Assembly: GCF_040054535.1 (NCBI RefSeq)
Contig: NC_090791.1
Coordinates: 17,872,327-17,936,326, forward strand
Direction: 5' to 3'
Length of the DNA: 64,000 nucleotides
From: Antennarius striatus
Taxonomy: Eukaryota > Chordata > Actinopteri > Lophiiformes > Antennariidae
Below are positions 6,113 through 59,029 of this stretch, piece by piece (position 1 is the first letter of the stretch; every line of letters begins with the position of its first letter). The notes under the pieces are model-generated. The model saw only the letters and a list, made by a program, of their open reading frames with translations, was not told where the DNA came from and made no database searches. The position numbers and the translations under genes are program-made.

Positions 6113-9100
6113 GGTTCCTACTTTACTATCCACTAACACTCTTGTGAAGTGGACCATAGCCCAGTGAACACAACAGACACCAGATATAAACTGCAAAGCA
6201 TGGTAACCTGCACTGGGAGGAGTGGATAAGTCTTTCAGGCCGGCCTGTAAAAACTGGGTAACTCTAGACTCCTGTGAGAGTAATAAATGTTAATGTTTTG
6301 TTGTTGACACCGTTACACTTCAGATAGGCCTAAAGAAAGGAAGTAAAATCACAAACCACAATGTAACGTATATAAGATCCACTGATTGCAAAAAATGTCG
6401 ATTTGTATAACTGACACATGAGGCCTATATTTCCATCGCGTTTGGACGTAAACGCCACAAATATGGGGCGTGACGTTATCCCTGCAGATCAAATCATAAA
6501 GGATTTGGGTTCTTTGATGCAGGACAAAGAAAACTTGCTAGATTCTCAAGTGATAAAGTGGTAAAATAAGACTGTAGGTCGAGCAGGCGCGAATGCAGGC
6601 TGGATGGATTTCTTCAGCAGACCTGTGAGGGGCAGAGACATGCGACGCACGCAGCACTTAAACCGGCTGTTTGGAGTACAGAGGAGATAAGTCCCCCCCC
6701 AACTCGGGGGAGAGTAGGAACCAAACCTCTGCACCCATAATCCCTGTCTGTGTGGATTACTGTACATTCCCTTAGATACATGTTTTAATTATGTAAATGA
6801 AGCAGCAGAGCTTTAACTTTAGCAGCAGTTAGCGGTTTTATGCTACATCCTCTCAGATGAATGAATGGATCCATTTTCAAGCAGGGATTTAAGAAACAAA
6901 AGCCATCACACCTGGTGCAAAACATTTTTGTGTAGGTCTAATTTAAAGTGTGAAGAGGATCTGTCACCAGTATGCATTTAGGCTATTTTATTAAAAGCAA
7001 TGGTGACAACAGTCCCCCCCCCTCCCCGCCGCCATTTGAATGCAGGCAGTGTTCACGTCCCCCTCTTCTGAAGTGAGCGATGTCTCATCACCTGAAACAA
7101 TTCAGTTTGAGAAAGTAAGCTGATGCACATGACCTGGAGTATATTTAACACACCAAAAATACCCAACGTTCAAAAAGAGGAAGGTTTTTCTTACATTTTT
7201 TTTTTGTGTGTCTGGTAATCTTTTATGTCATGAAAAATCGACAGGGGATATTTCCACATTTTTATTTGACACTGTCGTTCTGTTTGGATCGATTGCGTGT
7301 ACAAGCGAACCTAAAGGACACATAACAGTGGCTTAAATAGAACATGTACCAGAAATGATAAGCACACCTGCTGCGATCCACCATGCTTCCCTTCATGCTA
7401 CCCATTATATAAGACAGCTGTGTGTGTCGCTCAGCATTGTGTGTTACAAACTAGGGATAAACAATAGATGGAAAGTCCCCATCGCAAAGCCTGAGAACGG
7501 TTAGAGTTTACTGTTAGCGACATCCCCGGTGGAATCCTGCATCTAAAAGTAGGAGCAGAGGGTATTCAGCAGCTTGTCCTCTTTGGGCCGTGTGTGAATG
7601 AGTGAAACTACACTGTGGTGTTTTTCCTCCGTTGGTCTAATGCATGGCGTCCTTTCTGACTCAGCCCTCATCTCCTTCTCTGACTCATAAACTGATTACG
7701 TTTCCCGCTTCATGCAATATTAAATTAAGGTCAGGTGATCATAATATACCTGAGCATTTCTGGCCATCTAGAAAGTGCTCACAAAGTTCATACATAATAA
7801 AAAAAAACAACCCATTGCTGGTAAAAGCTGAACAGTGTCAGGCACTGTTTCTCGTCTCCAACCCGGTCTGTTGTTGTCCTGTGGCTCGATTACCTTTCAT
7901 CCCCACTAAATGTTCATTTTAAATTTCTTTATAAATTCTGTATTTATTATTCATCATGATGTAAGTGAAATGTAAAAAAAAAAAAAAAAATCACACATTG
8001 ACACGAAATATCCTACAGGCAAACCAACAAAAAAACTAAAGTTGAAATTGCCTCTTTGTTTGTTACTCACATTTACATGTCTGTCTGTAAGTATAAATGT
8101 AACAAGAGTAATCTGTGCACGAATGCAAAGATTAATCAGGTTGGTGTGAATTTGGCAGTAGCATTATCATTAGCATTAGACGAAGCAACATTCTGCTTCT
8201 TAAGTGCTGTTAGTGTTGTAAAATGAAGGGGTGTGTTTCACCAAATGTCTTATTGTTCCTCATTATAACACGGAGCAGCCAAAAAAATGTTGACTTTGGA
8301 ACCATCATGAAAAGGTCCAACTTTTCATTCAAGTTTTGACGGCGCGGCGCCGGCGTGTGAAACAATGTGACCTCTGAGAGCGTGTTTCAAGGTGCACATC
8401 TAGCAGCTCCATGAAGTCATCTTCCTCGGGGGGTGGGGGGGTGGTGGTACAGGAGGCTGCTAATAACAGCTGCCAGATGTGCAGCGTCCCGTGGGTCTGT
8501 GCACATTCTCACAGACAATGGAATGCTTGTGAGGAGCCCCAACAGGAAGTGAGGTCAGGGCTCTTGACCCCTCCCCTAAAAGCTTTAGAGGGAGCTTCAG
8601 CGGTGGAGCAGCTTTTGAAAGGGTCCCATCATAAACCCAGTGATGATGAGAAGTGAGTCCATAAAGGCGGGCTGTTGGTCCAGCCCACGGAACACTTGAG
8701 GTTGGGGCGCAGACTGCGAATAACAAAAGGATCTGAGACACGTGTCTTTACCATTAAAGCTGTTTAACTTGCCTCAGAGTTATAGCAAAGCTGATGCTTT
8801 TTTTTTTCACCAGTTGTTCTCTTTTCTCTTTAAAGCAGTTCTTTCCAAATAGTAGCTGCTCCTGCGGGGGCGGCAGGGATGAGTGTGGTGAGAATGGTTG
8901 CACAATCTTGATCCTTCCTCCACCAGTAAACCATCAGCAGACACGACATGAGTCAAAGTTGTTGAGACCGTTTGGTAGAGACCAGATGTACCTCAAGGCT
9001 CATTTGAAGCTGCTGGTGTGTTTCAGTAATGGGCTTGTTTCATTCCCTCCCTTAACTAGAATGTATGATGAACAGTGAGGTGTTTTCTTGTCCGGGGTGT

Positions 9101-21826: not shown

Positions 21827-22942
21827 ATGAATCTCTGCCGCAAAGCCACAGTGCTCTGCCACCCCGTCACCATGAAGAGCAAGTATTCCCAGTACCACAA
21901 CAAGAGTCTAATCCACCCCTACTATGCCTTTGCTAAGAACATGACCCCCCAGGATCTGGATAAACACATAGAGAATAAAAAACAGCTCACGACCCTCAAC
22001 ATTGTGATCATCGTCCTCTGCACCATCATCATCCTGGAGAATCTGCTGGTCCTAATCGCCGTCTGCCGCAACAAAAAGTTCCACTCCGCCATGTTTTTCT
22101 TCATCGGTAATCTGGCGTTTTCTGACCTGCTGGCAGGCTCAGCCTACATAGCCAACATTTTTCTGTCAGGGTCAAGGACATTCGATCTGATGCCAATACA
22201 GTGGTTCATCCGGGAGGGTACGGCTTTCATCGCTCTGGCTGCTTCGGTCTTCAGCTTGCTGGCGATAGCCATGGAACGCTATCTTGCTATCACCAAGGTC
22301 AAGGTGTACGGCTCCACTAAAACATGCCGCATGTTCCTTTTGATAGGAGCTTGTTGGGTGACCTCCATTTTGCTGGGAGGACTTCCCATCATTGGCTGGA
22401 ACTGCATCAACAACCTCCTTGAATGTTCTGCTGTTTTGCCACTCTACTCCAAGAAGTACATCCTCTTTGTCGTCACCATTTTCAGCATCATACTCCTCTC
22501 TATCGTCATTCTCTATGTGAAAATCTATTTGATTGTACGTTCCAGTCACCAGGAAGCCACCAATTCAGCAGCCTACGCTCTTTTGAAAACTGTCACTATT
22601 GTACTGGGTGTCTTCATCATGTGCTGGCTGCCTGCTTTTACCATCCTCCTCCTAGATTCAGCCTGCAGGATACAGTTCTGCCCAATCCTCTCCAAAGCAG
22701 ACATCTTTTTTGGCTTTGCCACTCTGAACTCGGCACTCAACCCGGTGATCTACACGCTCCGCAGCAAGGACATGAGGAAGGAATTCCTGCGTGTGCTGTG
22801 CTGCTGGGGGGTGCTGCAGAGCGGGCAGCCCTCTGACCGCTGTCTGGTGCCTCTAAGAAGCTCCAGCTCTCTGGAGCACTGCACCAACAAGAACGAACAC
22901 CAGACCACACCGATCATGCAAGACTGTACCACCTGCGTCTGA
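21827..22942 (+). CDS. s1pr2: Sphingosine-1-phosphate receptor 2
   Basis: A seven-transmembrane receptor for sphingosine-1-phosphate at the plasma membrane. This family member signals mainly through G12/13, Gq and Gi; the zebrafish orthologue (miles apart) is needed for heart-precursor migration. The frame is one uninterrupted exon of 371 residues. Seen in it: ENLLVLIAV in helix 1, KFHSAMFFFIGNLAFSDLLAG in loop 1 and helix 2, MERY as the DRY-type motif, LLKTVTIVLGVFIMCWLPAF in helix 6, NPVIYT as NPxxY in helix 7, and a CC pair after helix 8 for likely palmitoylation. The tail ends DCTTCV, a class I PDZ-ligand type. Helix and loop sequences match S1PR2 better than S1PR1 or S1PR3. Adjacency to dnmt1 matches the human order. 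A second in-frame ATG at 21872 (residue 16) has a much stronger Kozak context (GTCACCATGA). Confidence 0.95.
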   Translation: MNLCRKATVLCHPVTMKSKYSQYHNKSLIHPYYAFAKNMTPQDLDKHIENKKQLTTLNIVIIVLCTIIILENLLVLIAVCRNKKFHSAMFFFIGNLAFSDLLAGSAYIANIFLSGSRTFDLMPIQWFIREGTAFIALAASVFSLLAIAMERYLAITKVKVYGSTKTCRMFLLIGACWVTSILLGGLPIIGWNCINNLLECSAVLPLYSKKYILFVVTIFSIILLSIVILYVKIYLIVRSSHQEATNSAAYALLKTVTIVLGVFIMCWLPAFTILLLDSACRIQFCPILSKADIFFGFATLNSALNPVIYTLRSKDMRKEFLRVLCCWGVLQSGQPSDRCLVPLRSSSSLEHCTNKNEHQTTPIMQDCTTCV

Positions 22943-26724: not shown

Positions 26725-39141
<12,417 letters not shown>

Positions 39142-40951: not shown

Positions 40952-43509
40952 TCAGTTGTTTGATGGCCTGCAAAGAGGGTTGGATAAAGTTAAAAACAAT
41001 AATTGACATTCTTTGACACTTGACTGATTAAAATGACAATCACTTACTTGGCCCATTCAACATTGAGAATAAGATGATCATATCCAAATCCTGACACTCC
41101 AGCGATGGCTCTGGATGCATCCTCCCGTCGGTGGAAACTGATGAAGGCAAATCCCTGCAGGAAACAGAGGTTTAACGACACAAGTGGACATCAGTCAAAT
41201 ATAACACAATAAATACAAATATAACCAGTTAGAAATTGGCTGAAATATAACTATTGTTTATTAAATGCAAACTGCAACTGAAGAAATCTCCAAGCATGGG
41301 ATCCATTCCAAAGACGTCTACAAGCCACAGACCCTGATAAAAATTCCTCCTTCCCGTTTTATTTTTAATTCCTTTATTATTTGCGGGACACGGACCTTTG
41401 ACTGCCCGGTGTTCTTGTCCTTGGCCAGGTAGATCCTTGAAATGGAGCCAAAGGGTCTGAAAAGCTCCTGCAAGTCTGTCTCACGGGTATCCTCAGACAG
41501 ATTGGTCACACGAATCGTGGCGTTGTCATCAGCTGTGTGGAACAAACATACAATGCTTTTACTGGCAAAGGATTTCACAGCGGCCTATTGATGTCAATGG
41601 AGACGATCTGATTAGCTTGCACTTACACCCACCTCTGCGGTTGGGCTGCATGGACTCCCCTCTACGCGTGCCACCATCCCTCAAGCTTGGAGGTACGTAC
41701 TTCCCAGTCTTGCTCTGTGCAGGCTGTGCAGGCTCAGGTTCCGCTGGTGGAAAGAGAAGAAAGTTGAAGATCAGACTACGACAAATTAATAATCCTAAAG
41801 ATGGGATTGGAGGGCTGATGTTACCAGAGCCAGCAGGTTTCTCCTTGTCTGCAGTGGACAGCCCAAGCTGTTCAGCCAGCTCCTTCTGCATGGGTCCCAG
41901 GGTGTCCTTGTATGGACAGCGGGTGGTCCAGTGGTCACCTTTGCAAATACGACAAGACACTATTTTCTGTCCTTTCAGTTTGCTCATGGGATCCTCGTCC
42001 TGGTCCTGGGCGTTCAGGTCCTGCAAGGGTTAAAAAGAGGTACACAGTCAATACCACCATTAAAGAATGTTTATACGTATTGCACAGATAAGCAGCAGCA
42101 CACATGAGTAAAACTCAATGTCAACGCTCACCTCTTTGCTGGAGATGAAAGTCATGAAGACATCATCGCTCACTGTGGTGGTGGCAACATTTGGTCCTGG
42201 AGCATCAAACTCTGAGTTACCAAATTTTTTCCAGTTCTGAAATGAAAAGATATAATCAAAGACAACAGAGTTTACCGAACTGCTGCTCATTAAAATAAAA
42301 ATGCTTCTTTGATTTAGCCAAAAAGCAAACCTTTCTCCTGGCAACAGCTTTTGAAGCTTTTCTTGTCTCAATCTTGAAGGTTCGCACGATCTAAGGGTCA
42401 GAGACAAGGCCGCAAATAAACTTTACATCATTTTAAATGAGGTCTTTTCACCTACTGTGTTCAAAATGCCCAAACATCTGTTGTATTTAAATACTACTAT
42501 ACCACTGATTACCATGTAGAAATGAAATGAAGCCTCTCTATGAATGCTGATGAGGTATTCAGCTGTTCAGAGTAACCAGGTGGTGACTAGTTGGAACTAT
42601 TGCTGTTATTTTATTCCATTTCACACTCCAAATCGTAAATGGTTTGGGATTCTGAATGACAGTAACATCTGAGAACTTTATCATTCAGATAACTAAATGC
42701 AATAGCAACAGCCATATGTTGGTCTCACAGCAATAGAAAATGTAGACTTAAGAACGGTATTTGCCAGGCAATAGGAATATCAGACAAACCAATGCAGAAA
42801 CTAAAGATGCAAAATAGAACAAAAACCACACAAATTACCTTGAATTTCTTTCCGTCATCATCTATTTTGTATTCTGTCACTGTTTTTATATTTCCTTTAA
42901 TGGATTCCTTCGGGGATGGTAGCGTACCTGACAAGAAAAGAATTAATATGTACAGTAGTCCAAAATAAAAACGTACCCATAATATTTCAGCCCCTAACAC
43001 ACTGACAATTACACAATCAGTCTTAAACCGTGTTAAATTGGATGTACAGACCCTTACGCTCTACCTCACCCCACAGGCTGCTAACGTGCTACTGCTAAGG
43101 ATGCTAACTCTACAGTACAGCAATGTCCACGGGCCTCAGCATATGTAGATAACATATCGTCAAAATTATCATTTTAAATATCTCCATTCTATAACTGTAT
43201 TCTAATATATTATATTATCACCAAAATGTCGAGAGTATGTCAATTCTGAACTATGAAGCCCGACCGACACGTGGAAGTGGAGCCGTCTAACCGGCCTCCT
43301 CCGCGGGGAAACCAAACTAGCAAAGAAATGCTACCATTAGCTACTGGCTATTTACCTTCATCTCCTTCTTCCTCTACTTGGTCTGCCCAGCTGGGCTTGG
43401 AGCTGAAAGGCGATAGATCGATAGACAATATTAGATCAATTGAACACCACCAACAACAGCAATTAAATGTTTATAACAGAACTCACTCGTCATAGTCAAT
43501 AGACGGCAT
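40952..43509 (-). CDS. eif3g: Eukaryotic translation initiation factor 3 subunit G
   Basis: A subunit of the eIF3 complex, which in the cytosol promotes 43S assembly, scanning and re-initiation. Coding exons in transcript order: 43509-43487, 43402-43356, 42927-42839, 42390-42331, 42236-42132, 42020-41825, 41743-41633, 41532-41396, 41154-41048, 40967-40952. All have GT-AG ends and matching phases, giving 296 residues, close to other fish and shorter than human (320). The N-terminus starts [20 protein letters not shown]. An eIF3G N-terminal domain holds a CCHC-type knuckle ([13 protein letters not shown], about 131-143). A C-terminal RRM (about 212-292) has RNP2 IRVTNLSE and RNP1 GFAFISF. The end WAKPSNN comes from a 16-nt last exon. 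The protein lacks an acidic insert found near residue 25-50 in human. Confidence 0.95.
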
Positions 43510-44793: not shown

Positions 44794-45741
44794 TTACAGA
44801 ACAGTTGTGGAGGTGCAGGCCTTCTTCGCCATGTCTCTCCTGTTGTCCTCTGAGCTCTTCCCACAACAAGCCACTCTGATGCTGTCAAACACGGCCATGT
44901 ACAGGATGGGGTGGATGCACATGTTCAGAGCTGCCAGCCCCTTGGACACCTGGTACATGTTGTAGACCCAACAGACAGACTCGTTCCCGTGGGTCTTCAA
45001 ATACAAGTGGTATATCTGAAACACGTGGTATGGAATAAAGGAAATTGCATAAAGCACAACCACTGATGCAACTAACAGGGCTACTTTGCGTTTCTCCAGT
45101 GTGGTTATATTAGTATTTTTCCACACTACCCAAATCACCACACAATAAGAAGTGAAAGTAACCAAGAAAGGAACAAGACACCCAAACACAGACAGAAAGA
45201 TTTTGTACTTGAGGTACGGCCCTTCATCAGTCTTGTCACAGAAGGACACACACAGAGTCTTGTTATAATACACACAAACAGATGCAAATTTCAACACAGG
45301 GCAGGAAATGACTGTGACTACAAACCAGATGATGCCACTGCAGACTTTGGCGTGGGCAGGCTCTACATGGGATCGGGTAAAGAAGGGACATGCGAGTGCC
45401 ACGCATCGGTTCACGCTTATGGCCATGATGAAGAAGATGCTCACATAAAGGTTACAGGTAAAAAGGAACTTCTCCATTTTGCAAACAAAGTCACCAAACA
45501 TCCAGTGTTTTCCCTGCGAGTAGTAGACGATGAGTAAAGGCAGGGTCAGGACGTACAGCAGGTCACTGATGGCCAGGTTACACGACAGGATGACGCCGGT
45601 GTGCCAGTTCCTCTTCTCTCTGACCACCAGCAGCCACAGGGCGAACACATTTCCTGCCAGGGCCACGATGAACTCAACTCCGTACACCGAGGGAAGCAGC
45701 GTCATTTGGAAACTCTCACAGTCAGAAAAATTGTGCATCAT
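44794..45741 (-). CDS. p2ry11: P2Y purinoceptor 11-like G-protein-coupled receptor
   Basis: A seven-transmembrane receptor of the P2Y family. Human P2Y11 responds to ATP and couples to Gq and Gs. The main coding exon encodes 315 residues. Features seen: FLFTCNLYVSIFF in helix 3, NRC in the DRY position (human has NRY), PFFTRSHVEPAHA in loop 2 closely matching human PFFARSHLRPKHA, VALLVASVVVLYAISFIPYH in helix 6, and CIHPILYMA in place of NPxxY, again as in P2Y11. The C-terminus TTVL would suit a class I PDZ domain. A splice acceptor (TTTACAG|GTTTAGG) sits 7 bases before the ATG, so an upstream exon exists. Human P2RY11 also has an intron at its extreme 5' coding end, so a few codons may lie in an exon I could not place. 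Neighbours eif3g and ppan support the name. Confidence 0.88.
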   Translation of the reverse strand: MMHNFSDCESFQMTLLPSVYGVEFIVALAGNVFALWLLVVREKRNWHTGVILSCNLAISDLLYVLTLPLLIVYYSQGKHWMFGDFVCKMEKFLFTCNLYVSIFFIMAISVNRCVALACPFFTRSHVEPAHAKVCSGIIWFVVTVISCPVLKFASVCVYYNKTLCVSFCDKTDEGPYLKYKIFLSVFGCLVPFLVTFTSYCVVIWVVWKNTNITTLEKRKVALLVASVVVLYAISFIPYHVFQIYHLYLKTHGNESVCWVYNMYQVSKGLAALNMCIHPILYMAVFDSIRVACCGKSSEDNRRDMAKKACTSTTVL

Positions 45742-46896
45742 CCTAAACCTGTAAATGTTTATTCATTAAAAATCCATTCTCTGAATTAAAGCCGCATTTA
45801 ATCAAACACACATGTAATGCATTATTAATTCTTACGACATTTTTTTTCACAATAAAAAAGTAAAATGTTAAGATTTAAATCCTCTTACCAAAATGTTGAT
45901 TTGCAGAGAAGTGATCGGAGATTTCATGTGTGGTATCTGTCAAGGAGGCGATACCAGTTATCTGTCTGTGGTTACTTAGTCTGTTCTGTCATTACTCTGG
46001 CAGCAGCAGATCCAAAGGAGACGCTGAGGATTTGCAGAACCTTGAAAGACACTTCTGATCTATATTTGGGACATTTCACAATTTGAAGAAGTGAAAATTT
46101 GAAGACAGCCTACAGAGTTTTGTCTGTGAACAGTCAAAGCTGCTCATGTTAGGTCTGCAGGCCCCATCGGCACGATGGTGCTACTGCAGCTTATTCCTAA
46201 AAACTGTGTGTTTTTCAGAGTGTGGAAAGCGCCAGTGCAAGCCTTACATAATTACATTTTTGGACCACTTCAAGGAAGACTTCTCTCTTTTTTAACATTA
46301 CTTGTATATCCATCAGTGCACTGGTTAACCGATGTGATAGTTCTGAACGTTCTAGGTTTGTAAATGGGCTTATGTAAGTCTTTTCTAGTCTGGGTGATCA
46401 CTCAAAGCCCTTAACATGTCAGCATCCACCCATTCATCCACCTGGGCCCTGGTAAGGTGAGGGGTGAGGAGGAAAACAAGAATGCATCTTGTGATCCTCT
46501 TACTCCTCATCTTTTCTCGTCCTTTCAACACAACGGTGAAGATGATGCAATGGAAAGCACCGAATCTGTCATCACTGTTTGTTCTCCTGACCTGATGGTC
46601 TGTCATGTTCGTGTTATTACCTATAGAAAAGGAACTGGCTGAGACTTGTTAAGCATCACAGTGAGAGTTCCTGTCTGTCATCAGTGCTGAAGTATCTGAA
46701 CATGACTGAAAAAAATGTTTTAGATACATATAACATAATAATATATATAATTTTGTTAACCGTGTCCGCTAACACGGACGTGAGTCATCTGATAACAGAA
46801 CAGACATCCTGGAGCCCATTGGGGTAGAACACAGAGATCATGTCAAGGTTTCATGACAAAGATATTCAGCTGCAAAGTTAAAAGGCATGTAAACCA

Positions 46897-49389: not shown

Positions 49390-52300
49390 TCAGCCTTTCC
49401 CCTTCCTCTTTTTGAATCCTTGCTTAGCTCCTGCACCTTTCTTCTTCAAGCCCAGCTTGGTTTTCTGACCTTTAGGCTTGAACGATTTCTCTTTATCTCT
49501 CTTCCCACCAAATTTCCTCTTCCCACCAAACTTCTCGCCATCACCTGATTTCTTTGCTCCAAATGTCTTTTTCTTTCCAAATGGTTTCTTGTCTTCCTTA
49601 AATTTCTTCTGTCCTCTCCCTGCTTTGTGCTGCCGTCTGTCTGGGCCTCTTCTCTTCGGCAATTGGGTGTTTCTGTCTGCTTTTGGAGGTTTTCCAGGCG
49701 ACACCTTTCTCTTCTTGACAAGTCCATGAGTCTTTTCCGTACTCTTTCGCTTCTTGGTAACGAACATGTCTTCACAAAAACAAAAGCACTGGATCAGTAA
49801 CCAAACTCAGAAGAAGGATGAAGCTCAGGATATACAGCACACAAGTTAGACTCACCTTCATCTGGCTCCTGCCCTACAGCCTGTCTGTAGTACTCAGCAT
49901 CATCATCAGATTCAGCGGCGGCTGCCTGTTCGTGCTGCGACCCAGGATCCTCCACCTCGCTGTCCTCTTCAGCCCCAGCGAGCTTCTTCATGCCTTCAAT
50001 GCTTCTTTTCCTTTAATGTGGGGGTAAAAATCTTTTACATACCATCTAAATAAAACATGGTAAAAACATGTAATTAAACACGGGACCAGCTTACTTGTTC
50101 TCGTCTCGTTTCACTTTCTTCTCAGCAACATTCTGCTCCTGCTTTTTCCGGCGACTTACTTTCTCTTTTAGCTGGGCCTCCTTCCTGTCAAGGATTTCCT
50201 GGATTTCCTCCTCTGTCTTAGAGACTAGCAAACATAAAAACATTAGCTGCCCATAAAAGACAATCTGTATAACAAACTATGCAGCTTTTAGATGCATCAG
50301 TAAGCGTTTACTTTTAAGAGTAATCATTTGATTCAGATCTGTTTCTTCATCATGTACACCAGAAGCAGGACAGAACAAACGACAGAGGGACACTCACTGA
50401 CGGCGTGATAGAGGATGTTTCCCTCTCCCATGCCTTCTTGTATCTTCATCAGTTGCAGAGTTAATCGAGGACCAATCTGAGGTAAATACAATGGAAAAAA
50501 TACAGATGCCATTCGTGCATCGTCATGAAAAAATCAAAAAATCCCTTTGTGAGGACACTCACCTCGGTCAGACGGACGGCGCTCTGCTGGGACGCCATGT
50601 TGCCTCTGCCGGAGTAGGCCTGTGGCAGTTCGGTTATGTTGTGCTCCCCATCTTGTTCTGCTTCGCTTTCTGAAAGGTTTGCCCCCCTGGGGCGGCACAA
50701 AACACTTCATGAGCTACTACAGCTATGCTACTACAGCTACAATTGCACTTTTAACAAAAACCCTACTTCATCAGCAGCTCGCTGATATCCTCCAACTTGT
50801 TCATGTTCGGGAACTTCTCCTGCATCAGCTTCTTGACGCCACGGCTCATTCCCACAGGGACGACCTTTAGGCTGCTGCACGGCAGGGACACATCGACACG
50901 GGTCAGTGTGGAATCGTCATTAGTTTGTTATTAAAGATCAGCTACAGCGGCCTGCAGCTGCGATGCCCTCTGCTGAGTACCGTCACACATTAAACGTTGG
51001 ACGAGTAACTTTTACTTACTAATGGCGCAGTTCTATTTCGGCGGATGCTGGGTTGTAATTCAGCAGCACGCACCTCTTGATGTTGTTGAGGTTCACCTGT
51101 AAGACAACAGCGTCCTGATTCCTCTTCTAAAGCTCACAGAGTTTAACGTACACGCGACTAGATGGCTCAAAAGATTTCAAAATCAGAAAGCGTTTACTTT
51201 TTCAAAAATCTTCAGACAATCTCAGAAGACTATACTCTCATCACGCCAAAAAGGCTTTAAAATCTTGAGTCATGCAGAGATGATGCAACAGTTTCCCTGC
51301 AAACACATTACCTTGTGCACGTTAATAGAAGGAAACATGTTTTGAAACATGGTAGCCATGAGTTTGATGTGCATTCCATCAGATCCAAAGTTGTTGAGGA
51401 TGAGCAGTGGGTGATGGGTGAACTGTTGTTCGTGCATCCTGTGTTTCTTCAAAGATGACACCACATCTTTGACAAGGCAGTACTGAGAAAAGACAATGAC
51501 TCATAAAAATTGATATAATATGGGGAAAACTGTAAAAATGTTTTAGTTGGGGCACATCAGTGCGTTTACTTAAAAAAATCACTGACAGTCAAATTTAATG
51601 CCATCATCATCTGAGCCCATCTTAATATAAAACTCTTGCTTTATTTTATATTTACCTTTAGGACTCTGAAATGAAGCATGGGACCTTTAGGAAGGCGGGC
51701 AAGTCTCTGAAAAGAATTATTAGATGAATGTTACAGAGAACATAGATTAAAAACACCCAAAAAGTGATGCTGCTGGTGTGACATGAGCTCACCATGTTGA
51801 GACTGCTGGGAGTTTTACTGAAGATCATGAAGTGTGAAACTCCCAGTGGTCCTGCAATCGCCACAAAGTCTTTCAGCACATTTTTTTTCCTCATCTGGCC
51901 CACCCAAAAAAAGCAGAGTTTCATTCATTAGTGTGTGGAAAACAGCCCTTTTGGGCCACAACAATGACCTGCAGGGTGGAACACAGTCATGTGGGTCATT
52001 TTAACGTCTAAATCTATTAATGAAGTAAATCCGGTTGTCGTGTGGGGGCTCATCAGTGCGTTTACTTTGAACATACATCACTGAAAAGTCAAGTCACAGA
52101 GTGTCATCATTTGAGCCCGACCATCATCATTTCACCGAGAATTAGATTCACGTAACACAGCTGGCCAGAAATAAGAAATCAGTAACTCCCATTTTGGGCA
52201 AACAGATGAGTGATGCAATGTAATGCACCCAAAAGAGATCAGAAACCCCTTTCTGCTTACGGGAAGCAAGAACATACTGAGGACAACTGGTGCTGATTAT

Positions 52301-52679
52301 TACAGACGAACCTTCAAAGACTCTGCAGTGTAAGGCTCCATGACTTTCCGCATGTCCAGGACGAGCTGACCGACGTTCTTCCCAATCTGACCCCGATGAA
52401 ACACGAAGGAGTGCGGGACGCTGCCATACGCCTCCTCGGCCACATGGTTGGCGGTTGCCCTGGATTTCTTTTGGTTCTTTGTCTGAAAACAGGAAAATCC
52501 ATATATTAACTATCAGATCAGGACAGCTAAATGAACAATACACCAAACGCGTTATTGTACGTTAACGTCAGACACTGGAGATAAACGACAGGTTTCATGA
52601 GTAGCAGCGTTGTTTCAACAAACCGACTTTCCCGTAACGCTGCTAGCAAAGGCCGCTGTCTTACCTTCGACTTCCCCAT
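49390..52679 (-). CDS. ppan: Peter pan homologue, ribosome biogenesis Brix-domain protein
   Basis: A nucleolar protein of the SSF1/Peter pan family, needed for maturation of 27S/32S pre-rRNA into the large ribosomal subunit. Coding exons in transcript order: 52679-52665, 52482-52312, 51894-51793, 51706-51656, 51482-51312, 51096-51020, 50874-50767, 50686-50563, 50476-50398, 50224-50095, 50010-49856, 49769-49390. Phases agree and give 520 residues (human 473). A Brix domain covers about 25-300, with HSFVFHRGQIGKNV, LKDFVAIAGPLGVSHFMIF, HRMHEQQFTHHPLLILNNFG, GMHIKLMATMFQNMFPSINV and HNITELPQAYSGRGNM. An acidic stretch (EEDSEVEDPG, ESDDDAEYY) is followed by a long Lys/Gly/Phe-rich basic tail (GGKRKFGGKR), usual for nucleolar factors. 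Exon 1 has only five codons. Exon 7 begins at a tandem CAGCAG acceptor. Introns 2, 4, 5 and 9 carry snoRNA-like elements. Confidence 0.95.
50293..50358 (-). ncRNA. Box C/D snoRNA, SNORD105-like, ppan intron 9
   Basis: Minus strand: box C ATGATGA (50347-50353), an internal CTGA as box D', AATGATTA as box C', and box D CTGA (50297-50300). The guide directly upstream of box D (AAAGTAAACGCTT, then one A) is perfectly complementary to 18S rRNA AAGCGTTTACTTT. By the box D plus 5 rule the target is the C in AAGC, two nucleotides before the usual SNORD105 target U. The element ends 68 nt before the 3' splice site, the usual distance for intronic C/D snoRNAs. The terminal stem is weak. Confidence 0.75.
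51166..51269 (-). ncRNA. Box C/D snoRNA, SNORD105-like, ppan intron 5
   Basis: Minus strand: box C GTGATGA (51238-51244) and box D CTGA (51183-51186). A 13-nt antisense element AAAGTAAACGCTT lies one base upstream of box D and matches 18S AAGCGTTTACTTT. Box D plus 5 falls on the C of AAGC. The boxes are brought together by an outer stem, CTCAAGATTT (51269-51260) with AAATCTTTTGAG (51177-51166), and a small inner hairpin GCCTTTTTGGC. The element ends 69 nt before the 3' splice site. Edges depend on how much of the outer stem is kept. Confidence 0.7.
51550..51618 (-). ncRNA. Box C/D snoRNA, SNORD105-like, ppan intron 4
   Basis: Minus strand: terminal stem GGGCTCA with TGTGCCC (one mismatch), box C ATGATGA, box C' AGTGATT, guide AAGTAAACGC and box D CTGA (51557-51560). 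The 10-nt guide is complementary to 18S GCGTTTACTT, and box D plus 5 falls on the U of GCGU, the known SNORD105 target (U799 in human numbering, from memory). It ends 67 nt upstream of the 3' splice site. Confidence 0.85.
52046..52118 (-). ncRNA. snord105: Box C/D snoRNA, SNORD105, ppan intron 2
   Basis: Minus strand: a perfect 7-bp terminal stem GGGCTCA/TGAGCCC encloses box C ATGATGA (52104-52110), box C' GTGATGT, a 14-nt guide TTCAAAGTAAACGC and box D CTGA (52053-52056). The guide is perfectly complementary to 18S rRNA GCGTTTACTTTGAA. Box D plus 5 pairs with the U of GCGU, the site methylated by SNORD105. Mammalian SNORD105 genes also sit in PPAN introns. This is the best-formed of the four copies, although it ends 151 nt from the 3' splice site, farther than the others. 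Confidence 0.9.
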
Positions 52680-53645: not shown

Positions 53646-53804
<159 letters not shown>

Positions 53805-56596: not shown

Positions 56597-57000
56597 ATGG
56601 ATAACAGCCAGTTCTTGCGTGATCAAGTGAGCGCAGCCCTATGGCAGCTGAAGGAGGAGCTTCTCGTGGATGTCTGAAGGTACATGAAGTGCGATGGCCT
56701 GGACAGTGGGGATCCCCAAAGTAAGCCCAGAAGGGCACTCATCAGGATGGCAGAGAGCGTGATGGACCAGATCGAGAAAGATCAAGAGGAGAGTGAGATT
56801 TGTCAGTATCTAACTGATGTACTAAAACATATCGAAAAAGGAAATAAAGAATGCCTTCATCCAGAAAAAGAGCAAACTCCAGTGAAGCCTTCCACAATGA
56901 AGGGGCTGGAGGAGGAATACGTCTCACCAAACAAACCACCCCAGAAAAGACCAGCATCCCATACCAAGGATCCAGGACATGCTAGATGCACTGGGGGGAA
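56597..57000 (+). pseudogene. Truncated gag-like fragment
   Basis: A frame beginning at the ATG at 56597 meets an in-frame TGA at 56675-56677 and stays open afterwards (MKCDGLDSGDPQ onward, rich in Glu/Lys) until it runs into the reverse transcriptase segment. The C-terminal half of gag, the protease and the start of reverse transcriptase are missing, apparently through one internal deletion around 56960-56985. Confidence 0.6.
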
Positions 57001-59029
57001 GCTCATGGTTCTCAGTGTTAGACCAGGGGAAGGCTTACCACCAGGGCTCCTTGGATGAAGCGAGCCGCCCACTGACAGCCTTCATCACGCCCTGGGGGCT
57101 CTATGAATGGGTCCGCGTACCATTTGGCCTGAGCTCCGCCCCTGCAGAATTCCAGAGGAGCATGGAACATTGCCTGGCTGGCCTGAGAGACACGGTCTGT
57201 CTCCCGTACCTTGATGACAACCTAGTACACAGGAGCAGCTTTGAAAAACACCTGGAGCATGTCCGCTTAGTGCTCCAGCTCTACAAGGAGCATGGTGTTA
57301 AGTTAACTCCAAAGAAGTGTGAGCTGTTTAAATCCAGTGTGCGTTTTCTTGGTAGGTTGGTGACAGGGGAAGGTTACACCATGGACCCTGAGGAGTTGGC
57401 ACCGGTAATGAATCTGAAGGAAAGAACAATTGACACTGTTGGTGAGCTATGCCATGTGCTAGGGTTCCTATGTTATTATAGGCCTTATATCCCCAACTTC
57501 TCCCGTGTGGCCCTTCCACTGTACAGCCTACTGTCTGTTCCAAACTCTGAATATCACACCTCTGAACCACCAGCGGGAAGACACAAGAAAACAGTAAAGA
57601 AAAAGAAAGGTCAGTTGCCATCACTGGCACCCATACAATGGACCACCTCTCACCAGGAAGTGTTGAACCAGCTCATTGACACCCTCACAAAGCCTCCTGT
57701 CCTTGGGTATCCTGACTTCACTCAGCCCTTTGTGTTACATTGTGATGCATCACAGATTGGTTTGGGTGCTCTATTGTATCAGCGCCAGCAAGGGAAGATG
57801 AGAGTGGTAGCGTATGGCTCCCGCACCCTGAGCCCGTCTGAGAAGAGATACCATCTGCATTTCGGGAAGCTGGAGTTTTAGCGTTAAAGTGGGCCATTTG
57901 TGAACGCTTCCGTGACTACTCATTCCATGCTTTGTCGTTTGTTGTTTACACAGACAACAATCCCTTGACATGTGTGCTCACTACTGCAAAGCTCAATGCT
58001 ACGGGGCACAGATGGGTGGCGGAGTTAGCAGATTACAACTTCACCATACGTTATCGCCCTGGGAAAAACAGCTCAGATGCTGATGGGCTGTCTCGAACAC
58101 CTTTGGACAATGAAGACTACATGAGAAGCTGTACTACTGAGTCAAGTCAAGAGGCAATCAATGCGATCGCGGAAAGCATGATGGTGGAAAGCAGAAACCC
58201 CTGCCAAGGGATTGGGGTGGTCCACATGAATGCACTGAGCCTTGTGAAAGACTGGGATACTGGCCAGACTCTCACTCCCTCACAAATACGGAAAGCTCAG
58301 GAAGAAGATAAAACGATATCCAGAATCCTTTGGTATAAATCACAGAATAGGAGGCCAAGTAAGACTGAGATGAGAACAGAACACCCTGCTGCTGCGACAC
58401 TTCTGAAACAATGGCTAAAGATCCAGGTAGATGAAGATGGTGTCCTGCGCCATAGAACCTCCTACCGAGAACAGCTGGTGCTTCCCAAAGCCTACTGTCC
58501 ACTGGTTTTCAAAGAACTGCATGAGGACATGGGCCACTTAGGAGTGGAGAGAATGCTGACCTCATCCGAGAAAGGTTCTACTGGCCGCATATGTACAAAG
58601 AGGTAGAGCATTTTGTTACCAGTGTGTGTGACTGTCTTGAAAAGAAGAAGCCACATGTGCACCTTTGACCCCTATCCATACCACCTATCCGTTTGAGCTA
58701 GTCTCAATAGACTTTCTCTATTTGGATAAATGTGAGCATGGCTATGAGTACTTCTTGGTAGTCATGGATCATTTTACAAGGTTTACCCAAGCCTATGCTA
58801 CAAGAAATAAATGTGCGAAAACAGTGGCAGAGATACTCTTCAATGACTTTTCTCTAAAGTTTGGTTTTTGCCACCGTTTACATCACGACATGGGAGGAGA
58901 GTTTGAGCACAAGCTGATGACCAGACTGAAGAACCTCTCAGGCATCCAGGGTTCACACACGACTCTGGTGATACCAACAAGTGGCGTCTCAGATCCAGCA
59001 GCAGAAACCAGCCGAGTCAACAGTTGCTG
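56979..59029 (+). pseudogene. Broken pol: reverse transcriptase, RNase H, integrase
   Basis: The reverse transcriptase segment has VPFGLSSAPAEFQ and the catalytic YLDD. The connection and RNase H segment has PFVLHCDASQIGLGALLYQ and, after a one-base frameshift near 57880, VYTDNNPL. The integrase zinc-binding region has GHLGVERM. The core holds two of the three acidic residues (SIDF and HHDMGGEFE). A second frameshift lies near 58560, a stop near 58667, and the core is cut off before the third acidic residue around 58980. The order RT, RNase H, integrase is that of Ty3/gypsy. Confidence 0.85.

Follow-up and report, generated by a model that had tools for sequence, protein, structure and literature searches.

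In the fish assembly analysed here, ppan is probably the host of four box C/D snoRNAs that fall into two guide types, one for position U799 and one for position C797 of 18S rRNA. The assembly totals 548 Mb, and the window (the whole 64,000-nucleotide stretch of DNA that was analysed) is part of its contig C16. As the preliminary description had claimed, introns 2, 4, 5, and 9 of ppan each contain a box C, a box D, and the same core, GTAAACGC, on the minus strand; the cores and boxes could be located in the spliced gene model, and the elements are referred to as E4, E3, E2, and E1, respectively (Table 1). In all four, box C takes the form RTGATGA and lies upstream of the core, and box D is a CTGA that follows the core by 1–3 nt. 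The span from box C to box D is 58 nt in E4, 54 nt in E3, 62 nt in E2, and 57 nt in E1, which, with the guide directly upstream of box D, gives each element the layout of a box C/D snoRNA (boxes about 54–62 nt apart). On these sequence features, the presence of box C/D snoRNA-like elements in ppan introns is well supported. Scanning the other introns for [AG]TGA[TA]G gave no match in introns 1, 3, 6, 8, and 10, and one weak hexamer in each of introns 7 and 11. For H/ACA RNAs, the Rfam scan of the window at gathering scores was empty.

Table 1. Positions of ppan, its intronic elements, and neighboring open frames in the window
Feature	Position	Strand	Details
ppan coding region	49390..52679	-	host gene; spliced model, 12 exons, 520 aa
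E4, intron 2	52043..52120	-	box C from 52110; core 52065-52058; 1-nt spacer; box D 52056-52053
E3, intron 4	51547..51620	-	box C from 51610; core 51569-51562; 1-nt spacer; box D 51560-51557
E2, intron 5	51178..51249	-	box C from 51244; core 51197-51190; spacer TTT (3 nt); box D 51186-51183
E2 flanks, possible external stem	51165..51269	-	fold, intron 5
E1, intron 9	50293..50359	-	box C from 50353; core 50311-50304; spacer TTA (3 nt); box D 50300-50297
GPCR (rhodopsin-type) open frame	21827-22942	+	Pfam
C-5 cytosine DNA methylase open frame	35471-36208	+	Pfam
eIF3g open frame	41559-42029	-	Pfam
Second GPCR open frame	44794-45762	-	Pfam

All 11 introns of the spliced ppan model are GT-AG. The product contains a Brix domain, and its best solved relative is the Suppressor of SWI4 1 homolog. 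Its first 232 amino acids have five matches in the 548-Mb assembly; since all five lie within the ppan gene, a single copy of ppan is seen in the assembly. The neighboring open frames and ppan together resemble the mammalian gene order DNMT1-EIF3G-P2RY11-PPAN. Elsewhere in the window, retrotransposon reverse transcriptase and RNase H domains are found at 56901-57881 on the plus strand (Pfam), and a long AGAT tetranucleotide microsatellite lies upstream of ppan at about 53648-53804.

The core with box D alone is not exclusive to ppan. The string GTAAACGCACTGA occurs at seven places, two in ppan and five outside, and GTAAACGCTTNCTGA, which also joins core and box D, at five, two in ppan and three elsewhere in the assembly; a further core in the window, the fifth, lies at 6448 on the plus strand and has no box D. 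Such places would be expected if the intronic motifs had arisen by chance, a reading that we regard as highly improbable. The pattern GTAAACGCN{1,4}CTGA has four matches in the window against a shuffle mean of 0.01, and once box C is included, as TGATGAN{30,60}GTAAACGCN{1,4}CTGA, the whole assembly yields five matches, four of them in ppan introns within one 2-kb stretch, with none for the reversed-pattern control. None of the outside places was accepted as a further copy. The fifth match to the full signature (L010) is likely due to chance, the A-rich guide extension being absent by eye; the five outside GTAAACGCACTGA matches (L001-L005) were rejected after inspection by eye of 180 bases each, and the three outside GTAAACGCTTNCTGA matches (L030, L031, and L034) lack a box C in the preceding 85 nt and give no Rfam match at gathering.

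The four elements fall into two classes according to the distance between core and box D, which is 1 nt in introns 2 and 4 and 3 nt in introns 5 and 9. C/D guide RNAs direct methylation to the base that lies opposite their fifth nucleotide, counted upstream from box D. This guide nucleotide is an A opposite U in E4 and E3 and a G opposite C, two bases upstream, in E2 and E1. The spacer difference and the box D+5 rule thus give two predicted sites, U799 for introns 2 and 4 and C797 for introns 5 and 9, and the earlier proposal of four guides for a single rRNA site gives way to a prediction of two guides for each position. The numbering is fixed by the published site of SNORD105B, which is tabulated with 18S-U799 and host PPAN in PMC6466398 and listed with 18S-Um799 in PMC12931454, so that the second site becomes C797. 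The same split separates the Rfam consensus sequences of snoU105B (1 nt) and snoZ39 (3 nt): E4 and E3, and not E1 and E2, have the SNORD105 register of GTAAACGC followed by a one-nucleotide spacer (U799), and E1 and E2, and not E3 and E4, have the snoZ39 arrangement of GTAAACGC and a three-nucleotide spacer. PMC10911272 describes SSU-C797 methylation as incomplete and growth-dependent in human fibroblasts and places C797 among nine human rRNA positions whose methylation differs between fibroblast growth states; a list in PMC11426995 gives it as methylated in mouse muscle. For X. laevis, PMC8797249 names nine 18S modifications as human-only; U799 and C797 are both absent from that list, which suggests that the two positions may be methylated in X. 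laevis.

Comparison with Rfam models follows the same division. In the scan of the window no match reaches its gathering score, and the fits are to be read at that level. E4 and E3 match the full snoU105B model (RF01173) at 32.2 and 25.8 bits, below the gathering score of 49, and E1 matches the full snoZ39 model (RF00341) at 27.5 bits, below the gathering score of 39. E2 is matched only generically by C/D models, apart from a partial, 13.7-bit match to snoZ39 that skips most of the model, and so fits neither family; neither E1 nor E2 was reported for snoU105B in the Rfam search. Weaker matches to other C/D families overlap the same spots as E4, E3, and E1. Two other below-threshold matches, to sR53 (inside exon 11) and SraG (at the junction of exon 2 and intron 2), were set aside as chance.

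Across the assembly at E<=10, snoU105B finds E4 (E 0.0098) and E3 (E 0.63) among 58 of 69048 first-look candidates scored, and snoZ39 finds E1 (E 1.1) and L009 (E 6.1) among 70 of very many first-look candidates scored. L009 was rejected as a further copy, no core being present in the stretch examined. Prokaryote control genomes give matches at E<=10 as well (11 of 14 for snoU105B, 4 of 14 for snoZ39), though none of these exceeds the cut-off. Given these control matches and the partial scoring of candidates, the family scores alone are weak, and the pattern search is the stronger evidence. On their sub-gathering scores we call E4 and E3 SNORD105-like and E1 snoZ39-like, and give E2 no family name. 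Membership of the SNORD105 family, first proposed for all four, is therefore supported at the sub-gathering level for introns 2 and 4 and is not supported for intron 9, where snoZ39 fits best, or for intron 5, which fits neither family. The covariance comparison that had been suggested as a check bore out three of the four elements, as matches to snoU105B or snoZ39 below gathering, and failed for intron 5.

We take the vertebrate 18S target segment to be AAGCGTTTACTTTGAA. Against this general vertebrate segment, rather than one read from this genome, the longest unbroken pairing is 14 nt for E4, 10 nt for E3, 13 nt for E2, and 13 nt for E1, in agreement with the 10 to 14 nt of perfect complementarity first described. 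In E1 and E2 the pairing is lengthened by the spacer TT, which faces AA of the 18S segment. Searching the assembly with 18S segments of 37 and 15 nt gave no matches. A DNA search recovered two degenerate 18S rDNA copies, L025 (on C1) and L024 (on C8). In L025 the start of the target site is missing, a folded-back copy of the preceding stretch occupying the place of the sequence just before TTTGAAAAAATTAGAG, and in L024 the target site is altered, which leaves no intact copy of the target among the sequences recovered.

Two eukaryotic 18S sequences found in bacterial assemblies (L018 and L021) served as stand-in targets and are not the fish's own 18S. Against L018, the guides upstream of box D pair over 13 (E4), 9 (E3), 10 (E2), and 10 nt (E1); shuffled guides did as well in 0, 12, 1, and 2 of 200 cases, respectively. 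Against L021, E4 alone stands out (11 nt; 0 of 200 shuffles), with 68 to 84 of 200 shuffled guides as good for the others, and none stands out against the 5.8S plus LSU of L021. A second target reached through D′ guides was considered and rejected, as none clearly beats shuffles against L021 and L018 rRNA (best 21 of 200). Eukaryotic rRNA is present in contigs filed as bacterial genomes (L015, L018, L020, and L021), probably as contamination.

Could all four elements instead be SNORD105 copies for U799 only, in which the longer spacer of E2 and E1 is tolerated or these two copies are drifting? The 8-nt core is identical in all four and the host gene is that of mammalian SNORD105/105B, as this would predict, and the likeness of E1 to E3 and E4 over the whole element lies above 500 of 500 shuffles, though it is carried by the common boxes and core. 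We nevertheless consider this unlikely: both E1 and E2 have a three-nucleotide spacer whose two T's add pairing to the 18S segment and whose length is that found in snoZ39, E1 matches snoZ39 and not snoU105B, and C797 is itself a known methylated site (PMC10911272 and PMC11426995). Sequence similarity points clearly to E3 and E4 being paralogues: their likeness is reached by none of 500 shuffles when whole elements are compared, and by 4 of 500 when only the part from box C to core is. Between box C and core, the other five pairs of elements are weaker (33 to 108 of 500 shuffles as similar). The ppan copies were probably made by cis duplication.

For splice-site distances, the RNA end was counted as 5 nt past box D. 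Splicing-dependent C/D processing favors a spacing of about 65–80 nt from the 3′ splice site. The RNA end lies 153 nt from this site in E4, 69 nt in E3, 81 nt in E2, and 67 nt in E1, such that two of the four fall within 67–69 nt; of the three elements first placed 67, 68, and 69 nt before the splice site, those of introns 4 and 9 stand, and introns 2 and 5 have the longer distances. The outlier in spacing is E4, even though its family match is the best of the four. Intron 2 contains a possible alternative acceptor, CTGCAG (CACCCTGCAG), at 51969-51974 on the minus strand; it precedes the acceptor of exon 3 by 74 nt, and its use would put E4 79 nt from a splice site and shift the reading frame. 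With 12-nt flanks, E4 has a terminal stem of -15.0 kcal/mol, the sole clearly significant stem among the four elements; 1 of 1000 shuffles is as good, compared with 63 for E3, 92 for E1, and 852 for E2. In the fold, the outer flanks of E2 can pair with each other, a weakly supported pairing (60 of 1000 shuffles as good with 32-nt flanks) that resembles the external stems described for C/D RNAs lacking terminal stems. The z-scores of whole-element folds range from -0.85 to 0.10, so folding energy lends no support.

These differences raise the alternative that only some of the four work, with E2, and perhaps E4 or E3, being decaying or poorly processed duplicates. The 13.7-bit score of E2 and its want of a close terminal stem, the distance of E4 from its splice site, and the 10-nt guide of E3, matched by 12 of 200 shuffles against L018, are all consistent with this. 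Since both boxes and the core are preserved in every element, and E2 keeps its 13 nt of pairing, we think it quite unlikely.

Considered together, these data favor a model in which all four elements act as guides of two types; expression, processing, target use, methylation, and competition of the ppan elements would proceed as follows. After splicing, exonucleases would trim each ppan intron to its snoRNP, and fibrillarin would methylate the 18S base singled out by the box D+5 rule. The intron 2 and 4 copies, of SNORD105/U105B type, would guide 18S-U799. For the intron 5 and 9 copies, whose three-nucleotide spacer is that of the snoZ39 consensus, the target would be C797, which lies two bases upstream. 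Because both guide types pair with the same 18S segment, only one could occupy it at a time. Through this competition, splicing and processing of individual ppan introns might conceivably set the ratio of C797 to U799 methylation, a suggestion that we offer only tentatively and hold to be rather doubtful. If it is true, C797, which is growth-variable in mammals, could be tied to ppan expression. If C797 guides adjoin U799 guides in fish ppan, the gene would provide a test case for overlapping guides that use a common rRNA segment and for any dependence of C797 methylation on the output of the host gene. Cis duplication of guide RNAs inside a ribosome-biogenesis gene is in itself already well known.

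The ppan set is mostly ordinary in kind, and extends the mammalian PPAN arrangement rather than forming a new kind of system. Human PPAN reportedly holds two SNORD105 copies. SNORD105/SNORD105B (RF01173) has the core and one-nucleotide spacer in common with E4 and E3, and its tabulated host PPAN and site 18S-U799 (PMC6466398) match the prediction for these two elements. E4 and E3 differ from it in scoring below gathering and in sharing their gene with two three-nucleotide-spacer elements. The core and three-nucleotide spacer of snoZ39 (RF00341) are common to E1, which matches the full model below gathering. PMC3384982 reports detection of snoZ39 in mouse ES cells and brain. Our literature search found no statement of its target or host gene; from the consensus spacer, we infer that the target may be C797. 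PMC8178906 gives cis duplication as the usual route for C/D families and reports that in most human C/D families (59.5%) every expressed member shares a single host gene. As in such multi-copy families, the related copies of the ppan set occupy separate introns of a single gene, but here, in contrast, they appear to be split between two adjacent target positions.
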